A DNA stretch of 64,000 bases, from positions 186,001 through 250,000 of the forward strand of contig NZ_SSNL01000003.1 in the NCBI RefSeq assembly GCF_007004735.1. Reading direction: 5' to 3'. Made by a program: the position numbers and the translations under genes. The DNA comes from Salinigranum halophilum (GTDB taxonomy: Archaea; Halobacteriota; Halobacteria; Halobacteriales; Haloferacaceae). Every line of letters starts with the position of its first letter. Positions within the stretch are counted from its first letter, which is position 1. Under the pieces are notes generated by a model. The model was not told the origin of the DNA, did no database searches, and saw only the letters and a list, made by a program, of their open reading frames with translations. Below, one piece after another: positions 3,793 to 9,656 of this stretch.

Positions 3793-4650
3793 TTACTCGT
3801 CCGTTCCGTACACCGTCGTCGCGAGGTGTGCCCGACCCAGATAGCGCCGTCCGACCGTCACGGCGACGAGCACGGAGACGCAGACGAACACGACGTCCTG
3901 CGTGAGCGGGACGGTCGCCGTCGTCTCCCACGGGTAGGTGAGGTTCGTCAGCCAGTGAAACCCCACCGCGAGCGGGACGCTCCCTCCCGAGCCGTTGTAG
4001 ACGACGGTGACCACGATGGAGGTCGCGACGAGCGTGACGAACAGACGGACCAGGCCCGGGACCAGCGGACCGGCGCGGGCGAACTCGGCCGTCGAGATGA
4101 CGAGCGCGGGCGCGTGCCAGAGCGCCCAGACCGTCCCGAGGAGCACGCCCGAGACGAGGCCGCTGTAGCGTCGTTGTAGGAGCGGCAGCGCGAACCCGCG
4201 CCAGCCGATCTCCTCGACGGGACCCTGGGTCAACCGGCGGAGCGACACGGCGAGGAACGCGCCGAACCACCCTGACTCGAGCGCGAGCGGCGGGCCGCCC
4301 GTCGTGCTCGCGACGACTGCCGAGAGGAGGTAGGCAGCGGGGACGCCCAGGAGGACGGCGCCGTACCAGCGCGCCCGGCCACGGAACGCGGTGACGTGCC
4401 GGAGGTACGCTCGGAGGCCCGCCCGTCCGTCGACGAGTCCCACGACGACGAACGCCGCGATGGCCGGAGCCCACACCGCGAGGTACGCCAGCGGGGAGTA
4501 CCCCGAGACGGTTGCGCTCCGCCCGACCAGCGGTGCCGCGGCGAGCGCGACCAGGGGGACTCCCCACGACAGTGCGAACGTCAGCCCGAAGAACCCCGCG
4601 AGACGATGCCGACGGAGCCACCCGTCTCCGACCCCTCCGGATGTTGCCAT
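3793..4650 (-). CDS. CPBP family intramembrane glutamic endopeptidase
   Basis: A 285-residue multi-pass membrane protein of the CPBP (CAAX protease/bacteriocin-processing, Rce1-like) family. Motif 1 is EEIGWRGFALP, motif 2 WALWHAP and motif 3 GFHWLTN; the Glu-Glu and two His are the expected catalytic/metal residues. The start at 4650 (MATSGG) is preferred over an in-frame ATG at 4740 because the extra 30 residues are not membrane-like and would precede the first conserved segment. Substrate unknown; possible roles include prenyl-protein processing or peptide maturation. Confidence 0.85.
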   Translation of the reverse strand: MATSGGVGDGWLRRHRLAGFFGLTFALSWGVPLVALAAAPLVGRSATVSGYSPLAYLAVWAPAIAAFVVVGLVDGRAGLRAYLRHVTAFRGRARWYGAVLLGVPAAYLLSAVVASTTGGPPLALESGWFGAFLAVSLRRLTQGPVEEIGWRGFALPLLQRRYSGLVSGVLLGTVWALWHAPALVISTAEFARAGPLVPGLVRLFVTLVATSIVVTVVYNGSGGSVPLAVGFHWLTNLTYPWETTATVPLTQDVVFVCVSVLVAVTVGRRYLGRAHLATTVYGTDE

Positions 4651-4814
4651 AGCCGACGTACGACGCGCGGCACCGAAAACAGCCGCGGCCGGCCCCGCGC
4701 GGAGACCGTCCTCGGCTGTCGCGGAGACGTGAGAGGACACCCCCGGTCACCGTGCTCGAACCGGGGAACACGCGACTCGGCGTGTGGTGGGCCGAAGCGG
4801 GAGCGTCGAGGGAG

Positions 4815-6215
4815 TCAGCGTCGGTGTAAGCGGAGCCCCCCGATGACGGCGAGCGCCCCGGCGAACAGGAGCGCGCCGACGAGCGGAGCGGCCTGCCCCT
4901 CCGGTTCGAGCATCTCCCGCGTCGGTCGCTCCGTCGTCGCCTCCGCCACCGAGTCGGGCACGGTGGGAGTCGCGTCCGTCCCGACGTACGTGGCGAGCCA
5001 CTCGTCGCGGGGTTCACCGACCGTCTCCTCGACGAGCGTCGCGAACGTCTCGTCCGTCACCGTCCCGTCGTGGGCGTTCACAGCGGCGAACACGTCCTGG
5101 AGCGTCCTGTCGCCGTCGCTCGCTTCTCTGACCTCGACGTCGAGCGCCGCGAGCACGCGCATCCCCTTGAAGTAGCTCGCGCGGTCGGTGACGCTCCGGC
5201 TCTCGCGAAGCACCGCGTCGTTCGTCTCGTCGGTGCGGACGTACTCGACGAACGCCGCCTCCGAGACGTGACCACCCTCCGAGGCGAGCCGCGCCGCGTA
5301 ATACTCCGCGCTGGCGTCGTCGAACCACCGCATCCCCGACCCGGCCTCGTACGCCTGGCGGCTGTGGACGTACTCGTGGAACCACGCGTTGTCCGCCGTC
5401 TCGAGCGGCCGGTCGGCACCGACGTACATGTCCTGTCGGCCGTCGACCTGCGCTCGCGACAGCTTCCCGGGCGCGTCGATGGGTGTCGGCGCGACGAAGA
5501 CGGTCAGCCGCTCGTTCCGCGCGCCGACGCGCAGGTCGTCGGAGGCACCGGCGAGGGCGTCGGCGACGGCGTCGGGCGACGAGACCATGTCGGCCGCCGC
5601 CGGGACGACGAGGCGGATGGTCTCGCCGTCGACCGTCCGCGTCTCGGTCTCGTACGGGCCGAGGTAGGCGTAGCCAGGGCCGACGACGCCCTCGCCCACG
5701 GGCTCGCCACGCTCGACGACGGCCGGTTCGGGCGCGTCTGCCCTCCGACTGTAGCGCCACGCGACGTCCGCGGTGCGCCAGTTGAACAGCGCCCAGTCGC
5801 CCGTGCTCGTCGCCTCGAGCGTGCCCTCGTCGCGCCGGTCGACGTCCGCGACGTAGGTGATGGTCGGCCGGTCGACGGCCGACGCCGCGCCGTCCCACGT
5901 CCACGTTCCGTCCGTGGTCTGTTCGTAGCCGGTGGTCTCGACCACGTCGGCTCCGTCGGGCGGCGAGACAGAGACGCCCGTCACCGAGTCGGGAACCGCC
6001 GTCTCGACCGTCACCCGGACCGTCCCTTCCCGGTCGGGCAGGCGCTCGAACGCGTGCGTGAACGTCAGCACGTTCTCGCCCTGGGTCGCCGTCGCAGTCT
6101 CTGCCGCTCCGCTCGGCGACGCAGCCGCGGGGACGGGGCCAGCCGTCGCCACGACGAGGAGCACCAGTGCCACGGCGACGACCGCCGGCCGCGTCTCCGT
6201 GCCGAGGGGGCTCAT
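4815..6215 (-). CDS. membrane-anchored gluzincin-like metallopeptidase (HExxH)
   Basis: A 466-residue exported protein. Residues 1-32 form a signal peptide, 33-230 a beta-rich domain and 235-400 a metallopeptidase domain with HEYVH at 280-284 and a candidate third ligand Glu304 in DDASAEYYA, one residue further than the common HExxH-x18-E spacing. The last 25 residues form a transmembrane anchor followed by RLHRR, so the catalytic domain faces outside. Its start codon overlaps the stop of the upstream 7TM/ATP-grasp gene by 4 nt (ATGA), indicating co-transcription and coupled translation. The M1/M61-like (gluzincin) assignment rests on motifs only; the substrate is unknown. Confidence 0.82.
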   Translation of the reverse strand: MSPLGTETRPAVVAVALVLLVVATAGPVPAAASPSGAAETATATQGENVLTFTHAFERLPDREGTVRVTVETAVPDSVTGVSVSPPDGADVVETTGYEQTTDGTWTWDGAASAVDRPTITYVADVDRRDEGTLEATSTGDWALFNWRTADVAWRYSRRADAPEPAVVERGEPVGEGVVGPGYAYLGPYETETRTVDGETIRLVVPAAADMVSSPDAVADALAGASDDLRVGARNERLTVFVAPTPIDAPGKLSRAQVDGRQDMYVGADRPLETADNAWFHEYVHSRQAYEAGSGMRWFDDASAEYYAARLASEGGHVSEAAFVEYVRTDETNDAVLRESRSVTDRASYFKGMRVLAALDVEVREASDGDRTLQDVFAAVNAHDGTVTDETFATLVEETVGEPRDEWLATYVGTDATPTVPDSVAEATTERPTREMLEPEGQAAPLVGALLFAGALAVIGGLRLHRR

Positions 6216-8476
6216 TCGCGCTCGTCTCCGAAGACGCCCGTGAGGCCGAACGCCTCCACGCAGAGCCTGCCGACGAAGCCGACGGCGACGAGGACGAACA
6301 GCGCCGTGAACACCGGGAACCCGACGAGGAGCGCACCCGTGAGCAGCGCCCCGCTCGTCAGCCCGCCCCCGATGGTCGAGAGCCGCCGCCGGACGAGGCG
6401 CTCCGACCCGGTCCGCTCGACCGTCGTCTCCGCTCCGTCGGTGGTCTCGTCGGCGTCTTCGTCGGTCGCTCTCCCCTCGCGGTTCGCGTCGGTGTTCGCT
6501 GGACCGACGGCGTCCGCCGCGTCCACAGCGTCCGCTTCACCCGTCCTCTGGGTGGGTTCGACCGCCGTTCCGACGGAGTCGACGGCCGCTGTCGTCTGGC
6601 TCTCGTGCAGGGCGTCCGCGTCCGGAAGCGCTTCGGCGGCGTAGCCGGCCGCGTCCCACTCCTGGGCGAGTTCGATCTTCCGTTCGGCAGGCAGATACTC
6701 GTACTCCGCGGGGAGCGACTCGACGAACTCCAGCCGCCGGAAGAGTCCGTCTCCGGTGGTGTTCTGGATGCCCAGGCCGGGCCGGACGTTCACCTCCAGC
6801 ACCTTCGGGACGTCCCCTTCGGTCAGCACCACGTCGACACCGGTGTAGCCCAGGCCGGAGGCGGCCGCCGCCTCGACGGCGGTCTCGACGACCCCGTCCC
6901 AGTTCGGCAGCCGGAAGTCCGTCAGCGACGCGCCCGTGTCGGGGTGGGCGTCGAGTTCCCTGTCGCGGGACTGCTGGAACGCGCCGAGCGGCGTGCCGTC
7001 GGCGACGTTCAGGCCGACGCCCACGGCCCCCAGGTGGAGGTTCGCCGCGCCGTCGGATGCCTGGGTTGGGAGCCGTGTCATCGCCATCACCGGGTACCCA
7101 CGGAAGACGATGACGCGGACGTCGGCGACGCCATCACCGTGGAGGTCACGCATGAACGCCGCGGGGGTCAGCTTCTCCTCGAGAATTGCCTTCCCGTCCG
7201 ATTCGAGGCCGCTGTACTGCCCGTCGACGATGCGTCGGACGTGGTCGACGAGGTCGCGTTCGGTCATCGGCCCCTTCGAGGTCCGATACTCGTCGCCGTC
7301 GCGGCCGGAGACGACGACGATTCCCTCGCCGCCGTACCCCTTGCTGGGCTTGACGACGAACTCGTCGCGCTCTGTGACGACGCGGCTCGCGACGTCGAGG
7401 TCGGTGCTGTCGTCGACGACCGCGTACGTCCTGGGGGACTCGACGCCGAGGCCCGTGAAGCGGCGGTTGACGTGCGCCTTCTCGTCCGCGCTCGGTCGGA
7501 GATGCGGTGGGTTGTACTCCTCGATGTACTGGTTGCGGCGCTTCATCGCGAGCACTTCCGTCTCCTCGAGTTCGGGCTCGTCGACGTCGCGGCCGGCGAG
7601 CCGAGCCAGTCTGCGTCCGTACCGCGCCAGGCGCAGTCGAAGCCGAAGTACGCCGACCGACACCGGCCCGCGTCTGCCGTCGAAGTGGCCGCCGAAGCGG
7701 CGGAGCTCCGAGAGCCGGAAGGTCGGACGCGAGCCGAGATACGCCACCAGGAGTAGCGTCACGCCCCACGCGACCGGCGTCGTCATGAACCAGTCGACGA
7801 GCGCGTCGGTCGAGATGACCAGATACGCGACGACGATGGCGACGAGCGTCCCCAGGAGACGCTTCGCGGGTGCGGTCCAGCCGCGCTCTTCGATGTCGGA
7901 GGCCGCACGGTCGGCGTACCACGCGCTGATGATGGTCGGGAAGAACACCTCCTGTGAGTTCGTGAGTGGCGGCAGGAGGCCGACGTCGCTGGCGACGAAC
8001 GCTAGCGCCGTTGCGATTCCCGCGACAGAGAGCAACACGGCGACGCGCGGTGCGGTTCCGAGCTTCAGTGGCTGCAGCGCGCGGTAGCTGAGAAGCGTCA
8101 CCACCAGCACGTTCACGAACAGTATCGCGCCCCAGACCGGACCCGCGCCGACCATGATGAACGCGATGACGACCGGCGCGAACAGGCCGTACGTCCGCAG
8201 GCCGACCTCGTTTCTGACGACGGCCATCACCGCGCCGGCGAGCACGATCTGGAAGAAGATTCGCGACCGGTCGAGTGCGACCGAGAGGCCGACCGTCTGG
8301 CCGACCAGCACGCCGGCGGCGCTGAGCAGGCTCGCGAGGAGGACGAGTGGGCCGAACGTCCGTGCCTGCTCTCCGAGCCACGCACTCGCGGCGTTCCGGT
8401 GGGTGCCCGAATCGCCTCCACCGGGTGGTTCGTGTTCGAGACTGCCGTCGGTTCGTCTGCCCGCGTCGTGGGCCAT
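6212..8476 (-). CDS. 7TM (UUP1/transglutaminase-associated) domain fused to RimK-related ATP-grasp ligase
   Basis: A 754-residue fusion. Residues 40-250 contain about seven helices resembling the 7TM module normally attached to an inactive transglutaminase (UUP1 family). Residues 310-600 match the RimK-related alpha-L-glutamate-ligase-like ATP-grasp family: MKRRNQYIEEYNP entry, FVVKPSKGYGGEGI (375-386) for ATP binding, EEKL (433-436), DVRVIVFRG (452-460), and Mg-binding Glu561/Asn563 in LEVNVRPG. An acidic linker (620-690) and two helices (705-740) end the protein. In proteobacteria the two modules are usually adjacent separate genes. Predicted activity is peptide-bond or amide formation at the inner membrane face. 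A TATA box (8497-8502) sits 24 nt before the ATG. Confidence 0.85.
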   Translation of the reverse strand: MAHDAGRRTDGSLEHEPPGGGDSGTHRNAASAWLGEQARTFGPLVLLASLLSAAGVLVGQTVGLSVALDRSRIFFQIVLAGAVMAVVRNEVGLRTYGLFAPVVIAFIMVGAGPVWGAILFVNVLVVTLLSYRALQPLKLGTAPRVAVLLSVAGIATALAFVASDVGLLPPLTNSQEVFFPTIISAWYADRAASDIEERGWTAPAKRLLGTLVAIVVAYLVISTDALVDWFMTTPVAWGVTLLLVAYLGSRPTFRLSELRRFGGHFDGRRGPVSVGVLRLRLRLARYGRRLARLAGRDVDEPELEETEVLAMKRRNQYIEEYNPPHLRPSADEKAHVNRRFTGLGVESPRTYAVVDDSTDLDVASRVVTERDEFVVKPSKGYGGEGIVVVSGRDGDEYRTSKGPMTERDLVDHVRRIVDGQYSGLESDGKAILEEKLTPAAFMRDLHGDGVADVRVIVFRGYPVMAMTRLPTQASDGAANLHLGAVGVGLNVADGTPLGAFQQSRDRELDAHPDTGASLTDFRLPNWDGVVETAVEAAAASGLGYTGVDVVLTEGDVPKVLEVNVRPGLGIQNTTGDGLFRRLEFVESLPAEYEYLPAERKIELAQEWDAAGYAAEALPDADALHESQTTAAVDSVGTAVEPTQRTGEADAVDAADAVGPANTDANREGRATDEDADETTDGAETTVERTGSERLVRRRLSTIGGGLTSGALLTGALLVGFPVFTALFVLVAVGFVGRLCVEAFGLTGVFGDERE

Positions 8477-8496
8477 GGCTCGACGTTCGACTGGGG

Positions 8497-8532
8497 TATA
8501 AAGGGGTCTCTCACAAACGCGTCCAAAGGGTG
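8497..8532 (-). promoter_or_regulatory. promoter of the 7TM/ATP-grasp gene: TATA box plus 29-nt conserved upstream element (copy 1)
   Basis: On the minus strand a TTTATA box (8497-8502) lies about 24 nt before the ATG at 8476, implying a leaderless transcript. Immediately upstream is a 29-nt element (8504-8532) that recurs with two mismatches at 9408-9436 at almost the same distance from the next ATG-initiated gene. Its core reads CCCTTTGGA, then GCGTTTG, then GAGAGACCC. Confidence 0.7.
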
Positions 8533-8690: not shown

Positions 8691-9380
8691 TCACGGCTGT
8701 CTGTTCGCCCCGACGAATACGTCGCGGCCACGCCCGACGGTCCTGCCGAGTCGAACGTCGACGCCAGCGGGGAGTGCCCGCAGCGAGAACTCCGCACGCG
8801 TCCACTCGCGGACGTCTTCGAGTCGTCCGTGGACGGGACGCTGGTCGCAGTCGTCCGGGAGAGCGTTGACGAACCGGAGCCGGCGGAACAGCCCGCTCTC
8901 CCTCGTGTCCTGCAGCGCCAGTCCGGGACGGCTGTCGACGGCCAGCACCACCGGGTCGTCGCCCGCGGCCAGCGTGACGTCGACGACGTAACAGATGCCG
9001 GGCGTGTCGACGGCGCGCGTCGCCGCTCCGACGACCGCTTCCCAGTTCGGTATCCGGACGCCGGTCAGCGGCACACCCGTATCGGGGTGCCTGGCTACCG
9101 TCTCCGGCGATACGAGGCGGCACGCCCCGTCCGCCGCCCCGTCGGATACGGAGAGCCGAACGCCGAGCGCCCCGTGGTAGAGGCTCACGGACCCGCTCGA
9201 CGCCTCGGTCGGCACCCGCGCCAGCGCCACGACGGGGTAGCCACGGTAGACGACGAGACGGATGTCCGCAACACCGCTTGGGTGGAAGCCGGCCACGAAC
9301 GCCGCTGGCTCCGGGGGCTCACAGCCGTGTGCCGTGTCCGCGGGTTCGTGTTCTTTCGCCGTGAACGTCTCCCAGTCCAT
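8691..9380 (-). CDS. truncated, degenerate paralogue of the ATP-grasp ligase domain
   Basis: A 229-residue protein whose residues about 25-205 align with residues 439-620 of the downstream 7TM/ATP-grasp protein: GVADIRLVVYRGYPVVAL matches GVADVRVIVFRGYPVMAM, and HPDTGVPLT, RIPNWE and GLFRRLRFV also recur. It lacks the 7TM part and the ATP-binding N-terminal half. The metal-binding LEVNVRPG has become LAVDSRPG, losing the Glu and Asn. It is thus either a pseudoenzyme/regulator of its neighbour or a decaying duplicate. The ATG at 9380 is chosen because it keeps the spacing to the duplicated promoter element. Confidence 0.72.
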   Translation of the reverse strand: MDWETFTAKEHEPADTAHGCEPPEPAAFVAGFHPSGVADIRLVVYRGYPVVALARVPTEASSGSVSLYHGALGVRLSVSDGAADGACRLVSPETVARHPDTGVPLTGVRIPNWEAVVGAATRAVDTPGICYVVDVTLAAGDDPVVLAVDSRPGLALQDTRESGLFRRLRFVNALPDDCDQRPVHGRLEDVREWTRAEFSLRALPAGVDVRLGRTVGRGRDVFVGANRQP

Positions 9381-9401
9381 ACAGTCAGGCCTATCAGAGA
9401 G

Positions 9402-9436
9402 AGAAAAGGGTCTCTCGCAAACGCATCCAAAGGGTG
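9402..9436 (-). promoter_or_regulatory. promoter of the truncated ATP-grasp paralogue: element copy 2 with degenerate TATA
   Basis: The 29-nt element at 9408-9436 is 27/29 identical to 8504-8532 and stands 28 nt from the ATG at 9380 (27 nt in the other copy). The TATA-like box next to it (TTTTCT, 9402-9407) is weaker than in copy 1. Confidence 0.6.
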
Positions 9437-9535
9437 ATGCGTGGGTCACAGCGGGACGTCCGTCCCCGCTTACTCGCGTGCCGACCGTCGCACGCCACTG
9501 TGCGACCACGCTACGCTTGCTCCTGTCGTCCGACG

Positions 9536-9556
9536 CACGGGGACGGAGTCCCCGTG
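9536..9556. promoter_or_regulatory. perfect 9-bp inverted repeat in divergent intergenic region
   Basis: CACGGGGAC and GTCCCCGTG are separated by GGA, forming a perfect dyad. It lies about 100 nt before the regulator gene at 9657 and about 156 nt upstream of the divergent gene at 9380. It could be an operator or an RNA hairpin; nothing in the sequence decides between them. The rest of the 9437-9656 gap shows only a weak TATA-like ATTAGA near 9617. Confidence 0.45.
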
Positions 9557-9656
9557 TCAGAGCCGCTTCCGGCCGTCTCGGCGCTCGTCTCGACCGGGAT
9601 AACTCTCCGGAACACATTAGACACGTCAGTCCTACCGCGAAACTGACCAGTCTTCC

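Follow-up and report, generated by a model that had tools for sequence, protein, structure and literature searches.

What does a haloarchaeon do with a membrane protein that carries its own ATP-grasp ligase, and why does its gene run into that of a putative secreted metallopeptidase? This question is raised by a locus at positions 4,815 to 8,476 of a 64,000-nt stretch of Salinigranum halophilum DNA (contig NZ_SSNL01000003.1), called the window here, whose numbering is used throughout. Both domains of the larger protein, the fusion, are known from the rloA-rloB-rloC genes of Pseudomonas aeruginosa (mBio 2025): RloA is a secreted retropepsin, RloB an inactive transglutaminase-7TM (seven-transmembrane) protein, and RloC an ATP-grasp protein (PMC12239564). 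A literature search for the two corresponding Pfam families, PF14402 and PF14397, in archaea found no paper. The main new result of our analysis is a third, unnamed component, a transmembrane (TM) hairpin that other haloarchaea encode in a separate gene at the end of the fusion gene. The pairing of the fusion with the peptidase was found at the level of the genus.

The fusion protein and its hairpin

The fusion gene and its parts are as follows.

6212..8476, minus strand: fusion gene of 7TM_transglut module, ATP-grasp ligase, and C-terminal TM hairpin, 754 aa (open reading frame, Pfam/NCBIfam, model)
7694..8257, minus strand: 7TM_transglut (RloB-type membrane) domain, residues 74-261 (PF14402, E 5.4e-23)
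6719..7540, minus strand: ATP-grasp ligase domain, residues 313-586 (PF14397 ATPgrasp_ST, E 4.6e-59)
6215..6406, minus strand: C-terminal TM hairpin, residues 691-754 (profile match to separately encoded hairpins)

The initial annotation placed the membrane module and the ligase in one polypeptide, and this was borne out by the Pfam scores: PF14402 matches the fusion with 82 bits against a cut-off of 25, and PF14397 with 200 bits, also above its cut-off. An additional N-terminal TM segment (residues ~43-61) is part of the 7TM unit, and the hydrophobic segments are helical in the model. About 40 residues stand ahead of the first TM segment, and no transglutaminase match was found in the fusion.

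The ligase has the RimK fold, and alpha-L-glutamate ligases are the best matches of both its profile and its model. When a profile of 11 archaeal fusions was searched against the PDB, RimK/alpha-L-glutamate ligases came first (6e-8 to 1.6e-7), followed by weak matches to cyanophycin synthetases and tubulin polyglutamylases. The fusion model has a mean predicted local distance difference test (pLDDT) score of 71, with most of the ligase part at 80-95. In a Foldseek search with the model, RimK held ranks 1-2. By Z score, RimK (16.8) and ArgX (17.4) tied; ArgX and LysX, both amino-group ligases, were among the best fold matches along with RimK. Residues D548, E561, N563, K333, K376, and R454 are invariant across 11 relatives of the ligase domain, and the Mg/ATP residues D548, E561, and N563 align with RimK in the D..E-x-N pattern. 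The ligase domain is probably active because the expected Mg/ATP-binding residues are invariant. The suggested kinship of residues 310-600 with RimK was therefore upheld by profile, fold, and aligned active-site residues. In a tree, the archaeal fusion ligases form a single clade with 100/100 support, apart from the bacterial RloC-like ligases.

The helix pair noted earlier at the C-terminus is present as a hydrophobic pair at residues ~691-745; its match to a separate haloarchaeal gene had been missed. The fusion was present in 14 of the 292 Halobacteria genomes sampled. This sample, together with a scan of genome contigs and a search for the family, gave 24 haloarchaeal fusion loci, in addition to one in a Thermoplasmatota metagenome-assembled genome (MAG). 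At every haloarchaeal locus outside Salinigranum (22/22), a small open reading frame (ORF) with two TM segments overlaps the 3' end of the fusion gene. These hairpin ORFs are mostly 60-130 aa long and start 1-55 nt before the fusion end, most often at ATGA. They match no Pfam family, and the hairpin ORF of one species has additional DUF1508 repeats.

Of the 22 hairpins, 19 went into a profile, which was compared with 315 proteins. The E-values of the members themselves are a product of this construction, so the independent evidence for them lies in position and overlap. Among non-members, the window fusion scored best with its C-terminus (E 3.2e-4), above all TM controls, and that of the fusion from Salinigranum salinum (S. 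salinum) gave an E-value of 0.013. These scores were reached by none of 2000 full shuffles for either species, and by 1 of 2000 block shuffles for the window and 43 of 2000 for S. salinum. Sequence similarity alone is modest, but since the profile match is combined with a shared position, the best reading is that the Salinigranum C-terminus is the separately encoded hairpin, joined by gene fusion. The hairpin is conserved in the two Salinigranum species, at 72% identity, and the preceding linker, at 39%, is not. In the fusion model, the hairpin region has low confidence (mostly pLDDT 30-55).

Genomes from two different haloarchaeal families share a 2384-bp block that is 99.92% identical (L065:7159-9542 and L066:7534-9917) and contains the fusion and hairpin genes and nothing else. 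The block suggests that the two genes were recently transferred as a unit. Inverted repeats at the ends of the block were not obvious by eye. No other conserved haloarchaeal neighbour was found within flanks of ~7-10 kb (only 0.6-1.4 kb downstream at two loci).

Flags for a TGA inside some of these genes were considered as in-frame breaks and rejected, as the ORFs of L063, L065, and L066 are open. The 7TM and ATP-grasp parts lie in separate ORFs at L071:7513-9991, and the ATP-grasp end lies in a separate ORF at L096:9887-11580; each may reflect fission, a frameshift, or a sequencing error.

The putative downstream peptidase and the layout of the locus

The remaining features concern the downstream gene, its junction with the fusion gene, and the upstream region.

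4815..6215, minus strand: gene for a predicted secreted, C-terminally anchored M1/M61-fold metallopeptidase-like protein, 466 aa (ORF, model, fold matches)
5364..5378, minus strand: HEYVH zinc-binding motif, residues 280-284 (H280, E281, Y282, and H284 invariant in 28 relatives)
5316..5318, minus strand: D300, third zinc-ligand position (alignment of 31 relatives)
6212..6215, minus strand: ATGA stop/start overlap of 4 nt between fusion end and peptidase start, compatible with translational coupling
8496..8503, minus strand: TATA-box-like CTTTATAC, ~24 nt 5' of the fusion start codon, identified by reading the sequence

Both ORFs and their overlap were confirmed where the initial annotation had put them. 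S. salinum has a matching architecture, with a fusion 76% and a peptidase 70% identical to the window proteins, and its two genes likewise overlap by 4 nt (L083 12391-12394). Between the two species, the fusion has a dN/dS of 0.29 and the peptidase one of 0.54. Since the arrangement recurs in S. salinum with the same overlap, with these dN/dS values and with domains that model as real folds, neither window ORF is a product of chance. Judging from the sequence, the spacing of CTTTATAC fits a leaderless transcript of the haloarchaeal kind; a sigma-70 promoter scan is uninformative for archaea.

As a single sequence, the peptidase gave no meaningful match in Pfam, NCBIfam, or the PDB, and in a profile search only some of its relatives gave weak M61 matches. 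Its model (pLDDT 85.7) matches M61 and M1 chains (Foldseek E 9e-15; VIA Z 22.8), and its fold is that of the M1/M61 aminopeptidases (gluzincins). M1 enzymes have a catalytic Tyr in a YxKG motif. Compared by sequence only, the Y348-x-x-G of this family, in which Y348 and G351 are invariant, resembles that motif. The hydrophobic N-terminal segment, the HEYVH motif, and the C-terminal TM segment with its basic tail are consistent with the earlier proposal of a signal, an outside domain, and a C-terminal anchor. Relatives have varied C-terminal parts, such as CARDB, PKD, PGF-CTERM, and zinc ribbons. Many of them end in a PGF-type surface anchor or zinc ribbon, and the Salinigranum pair in a plain TM segment and basic tail.

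Two neighbouring genes lie on the same strand. An Rce1-like CAAX-type membrane protease gene (3793-4740, minus strand) follows a short gap 3' of the peptidase gene. Directly upstream of the fusion gene is a truncated ATPgrasp_ST paralogue (8691-9617, minus strand, probable start 9380) without the N-terminal half, in which the equivalents of E561 and N563 are changed to A and D, respectively. It is apparently dead, although a dN/dS of ~0.4 suggests that some weak constraint may remain. Another Salinigranum without the fusion (L082) has a copy that is 57% identical, and S. salinum has none at this place. A defence role for the locus was considered and dropped, as PADLOC gave no match.

A possible mechanism and its rivals

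We propose that the fusion is a sister, in archaea, of the RloB-RloC pair of bacteria. Facing the cytoplasm, its RimK-type ATP-grasp domain would make a glutamate-rich peptide, which could be free poly-alpha-glutamate or be added to a carrier as tails. The 7TM module, covalently linked to the ligase and joined by the TM hairpin as a third structural element, would present this product at the membrane or pass it through. In most haloarchaea the unit would be two co-translated genes, the 7TM-ligase followed by the hairpin. In Salinigranum the hairpin would have become the C-terminus of the fusion, and the gene for an outward-facing M1/M61-type peptidase would have been added to the transcript. 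This peptidase would most likely trim the product after export and so stand in for RloA. We consider the ligase-membrane part of this mechanism evenly balanced, and hold the functional role of the peptidase only tentatively. The complete picture is unlikely to be right in all its parts: an undescribed haloarchaeal membrane peptide-ligase machine with an obligate hairpin, exporting a glutamate-rich polymer or tag, that in Salinigranum has become one chain and had its retropepsin replaced by a non-homologous metallopeptidase.

Several results weigh against the proposal. The fusion scores 244 bits with TIGR02291, the NCBIfam model of a RimK-related ligase (curated cut-off 314), and 35.6 bits with TIGR00768, the curated RimK family, whose cut-off of 143.4 is not reached. 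In the alignment of 31 relatives, the third zinc ligand is Asp only in the two Salinigranum proteins and Glu in the other relatives inspected. The M1/M61 fold suggests trimming from the N-terminus, whereas RimK-type ligases extend C-termini. In the candidate phyla radiation, retropepsin fusions sit on the ligase and are thus presumably cytoplasmic, which weakens any universal rule that the cut is made outside. Lastly, the linkage to the protease that the initial annotation had proposed to look for in other haloarchaea did not appear: no peptidase relative was found near the fusion at any of the 22 loci outside Salinigranum, within the flanks examined. The two fusion-bearing Salinigranum loci share neighbours on one side, so their linkage counts as one acquisition. 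Our doubt about the mechanism comes from the Asp ligand, the N-terminal specificity expected of the M1/M61 fold, and this absence of linkage elsewhere.

The same distribution is what would be expected if only the ligase-7TM(-hairpin) unit were Rlo-like and the peptidase were an unrelated surface M1/M61-type protein with other substrates, brought downstream of the fusion by a rearrangement in an ancestor of Salinigranum. Members of the peptidase family occur widely (213/292 Halobacteria genomes), are usually unlinked to the fusion, and have diverse C-termini. Any relative at all occurs in 9 of the 14 fusion genomes, compared to 213 of 292 overall, so the two families do not co-occur, and a relative adjoins the fusion only in the window and S. 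salinum. The pairing is a genus-level one and not a general coupling. An accidental neighbour, however, would not readily explain why the stop/start overlap was kept between two species at a dS of ~0.5-0.65, or why this type of peptidase, which shares no more than ~41% identity with any other, has been seen nowhere but next to the fusion. Both the fusion and any close peptidase are missing from the two other Salinigranum genomes checked, one of which retains only a truncated ATP-grasp. Ligase-protease pairing is also a recurring theme, as described below. An unrelated peptidase is a serious contender, to which we give somewhat less than an even chance.

A second rival concerns the product. The ATP-grasp domain might link something other than glutamate, such as a sugar- or lipid-linked surface block or a small-molecule amide, with the 7TM module acting as a sensor or scaffold instead of an exporter. 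The Pfam family name includes 'sugar-transfer associated', and ArgX/LysX, cyanophycin synthetase, D-Ala ligases, and L-amino acid ligases all lie within a few Z units of RimK. Nevertheless, the best sequence matches are RimK/alpha-L-glutamate ligases, and RloA, whose gene adjoins the bacterial relative, cleaves poly-glutamate (PMC12239564). We therefore regard a non-glutamate product as somewhat unlikely. It is improbable that the downstream protein is a pseudo-peptidase, which would bind the product or the 7TM part but not cut. Such a role might be suggested by the Glu-to-Asp change at D300, confined in the alignment to the two Salinigranum proteins, and by an evolution faster than that of the ligase, but HExxH and the invariant Y348-x-x-G are retained, and Asp is able to serve as a zinc ligand in aspzincins.

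Comparison with known systems

Iyer and colleagues (2009) reportedly proposed amidoligase/peptide-tagging systems in which a RimK-like ligase, a 7TM/inactive transglutaminase protein, and a protease tag and trim. The bacterial relatives are indeed separate genes beside a different protease, as the initial annotation had it, but its "ATP-dependent zinc" protease is RimB/RloA, an aspartic protease of the retropepsin-like kind (PMC12239564). In vitro, RloA cuts poly-glutamate, and deletion of rloB or rloC rescues a triple-protease mutant in hypo-osmotic stress (PMC12239564). That rloA mutants are rescued when rloB or rloC is lost is consistent with a maker/cutter pair. By analogy, the Rlo data support the general idea of building inside and cutting outside, so this earlier suggestion gains experimental backing from the bacterial counterpart, although in haloarchaea the pairing does not extend beyond the genus.

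Ligase and protease are paired repeatedly: as separate genes in rlo and rim, and fused in both bacteria and archaea. In candidate-phylum bacteria (L098-L102), a RloC-like ligase behind a separate 7TM_transglut gene has a C-terminal retropepsin-like extension with D(T/S)G motifs (the Pfam match is significant in L098, and the others were recognised by motif), and L102 has a further retropepsin gene with a 4-nt overlap. In the Thermoplasmatota MAG, a secreted Transglut_core protein whose catalytic Cys is apparently Ser lies directly downstream of the fusion (L093:11503-12600, plus strand). An exported prenyltransferase-toroid protein precedes the same fusion with a 4-nt overlap (L093:7041-9905, plus strand). 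Because archaea fuse the module to the ligase and some bacteria fuse the ligase to the protease, the 7TM module, ligase, and protease are likely to act together.

A linked RloA was sought through PF05618 and rejected. This family occurs in 17 of 17 haloarchaeal genomes checked, in ORFs of mostly ~460-500 aa, and the one examined is a RimK-retropepsin fusion, so we do not count these ORFs as rlo genes. The window's genome has two matches, both on contig C3; the one read is a 475-aa RimK ligase fused to a RimB-type retropepsin (L123:1672-3099, minus strand).

The RimK/RimB ribosome-modification pair also combines a RimK-fold ligase, whose active-site residues align with those of the fusion, with a protease; that pair is soluble and cytoplasmic, with no membrane module and a retropepsin as its protease (PMC12239564; PMC11957791). 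The Salinigranum peptidase shares with M1/M61 aminopeptidases (PDB 4fgm, 7xyo, 8j9c) an N-terminal beta domain and an HExxH catalytic domain (residues 48-425, Z ~20-23), but it is predicted to be membrane-anchored, has Asp as third ligand, and has no significant Pfam match of its own.

In bacteria, RloB and RloC affect osmotic survival, biofilm, and antibiotic tolerance. Archaea that carry the module and ligase in a single chain, with a defined third TM part and neither periplasm nor murein, would offer a simpler setting for finding the product. Haloarchaea are easily lysed in low salt. The hairpin component could be looked for in bacteria too.

Like Rlo, the archaeal locus has 7TM_transglut and ATPgrasp_ST domains, with the ligase predicted to be cytoplasmic and the protease outside, and in Salinigranum the fusion is operonic with a predicted secreted protease. 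Unlike Rlo, it has the 7TM module and ligase in a single polypeptide without a transglutaminase domain, a TM hairpin instead of RloA (PF05618), and, in Salinigranum, an unrelated M1/M61-fold peptidase. Since the transglutaminase domain and RloA are two defining parts of Rlo, we do not class the archaeal locus as Rlo, yet it would work like one.

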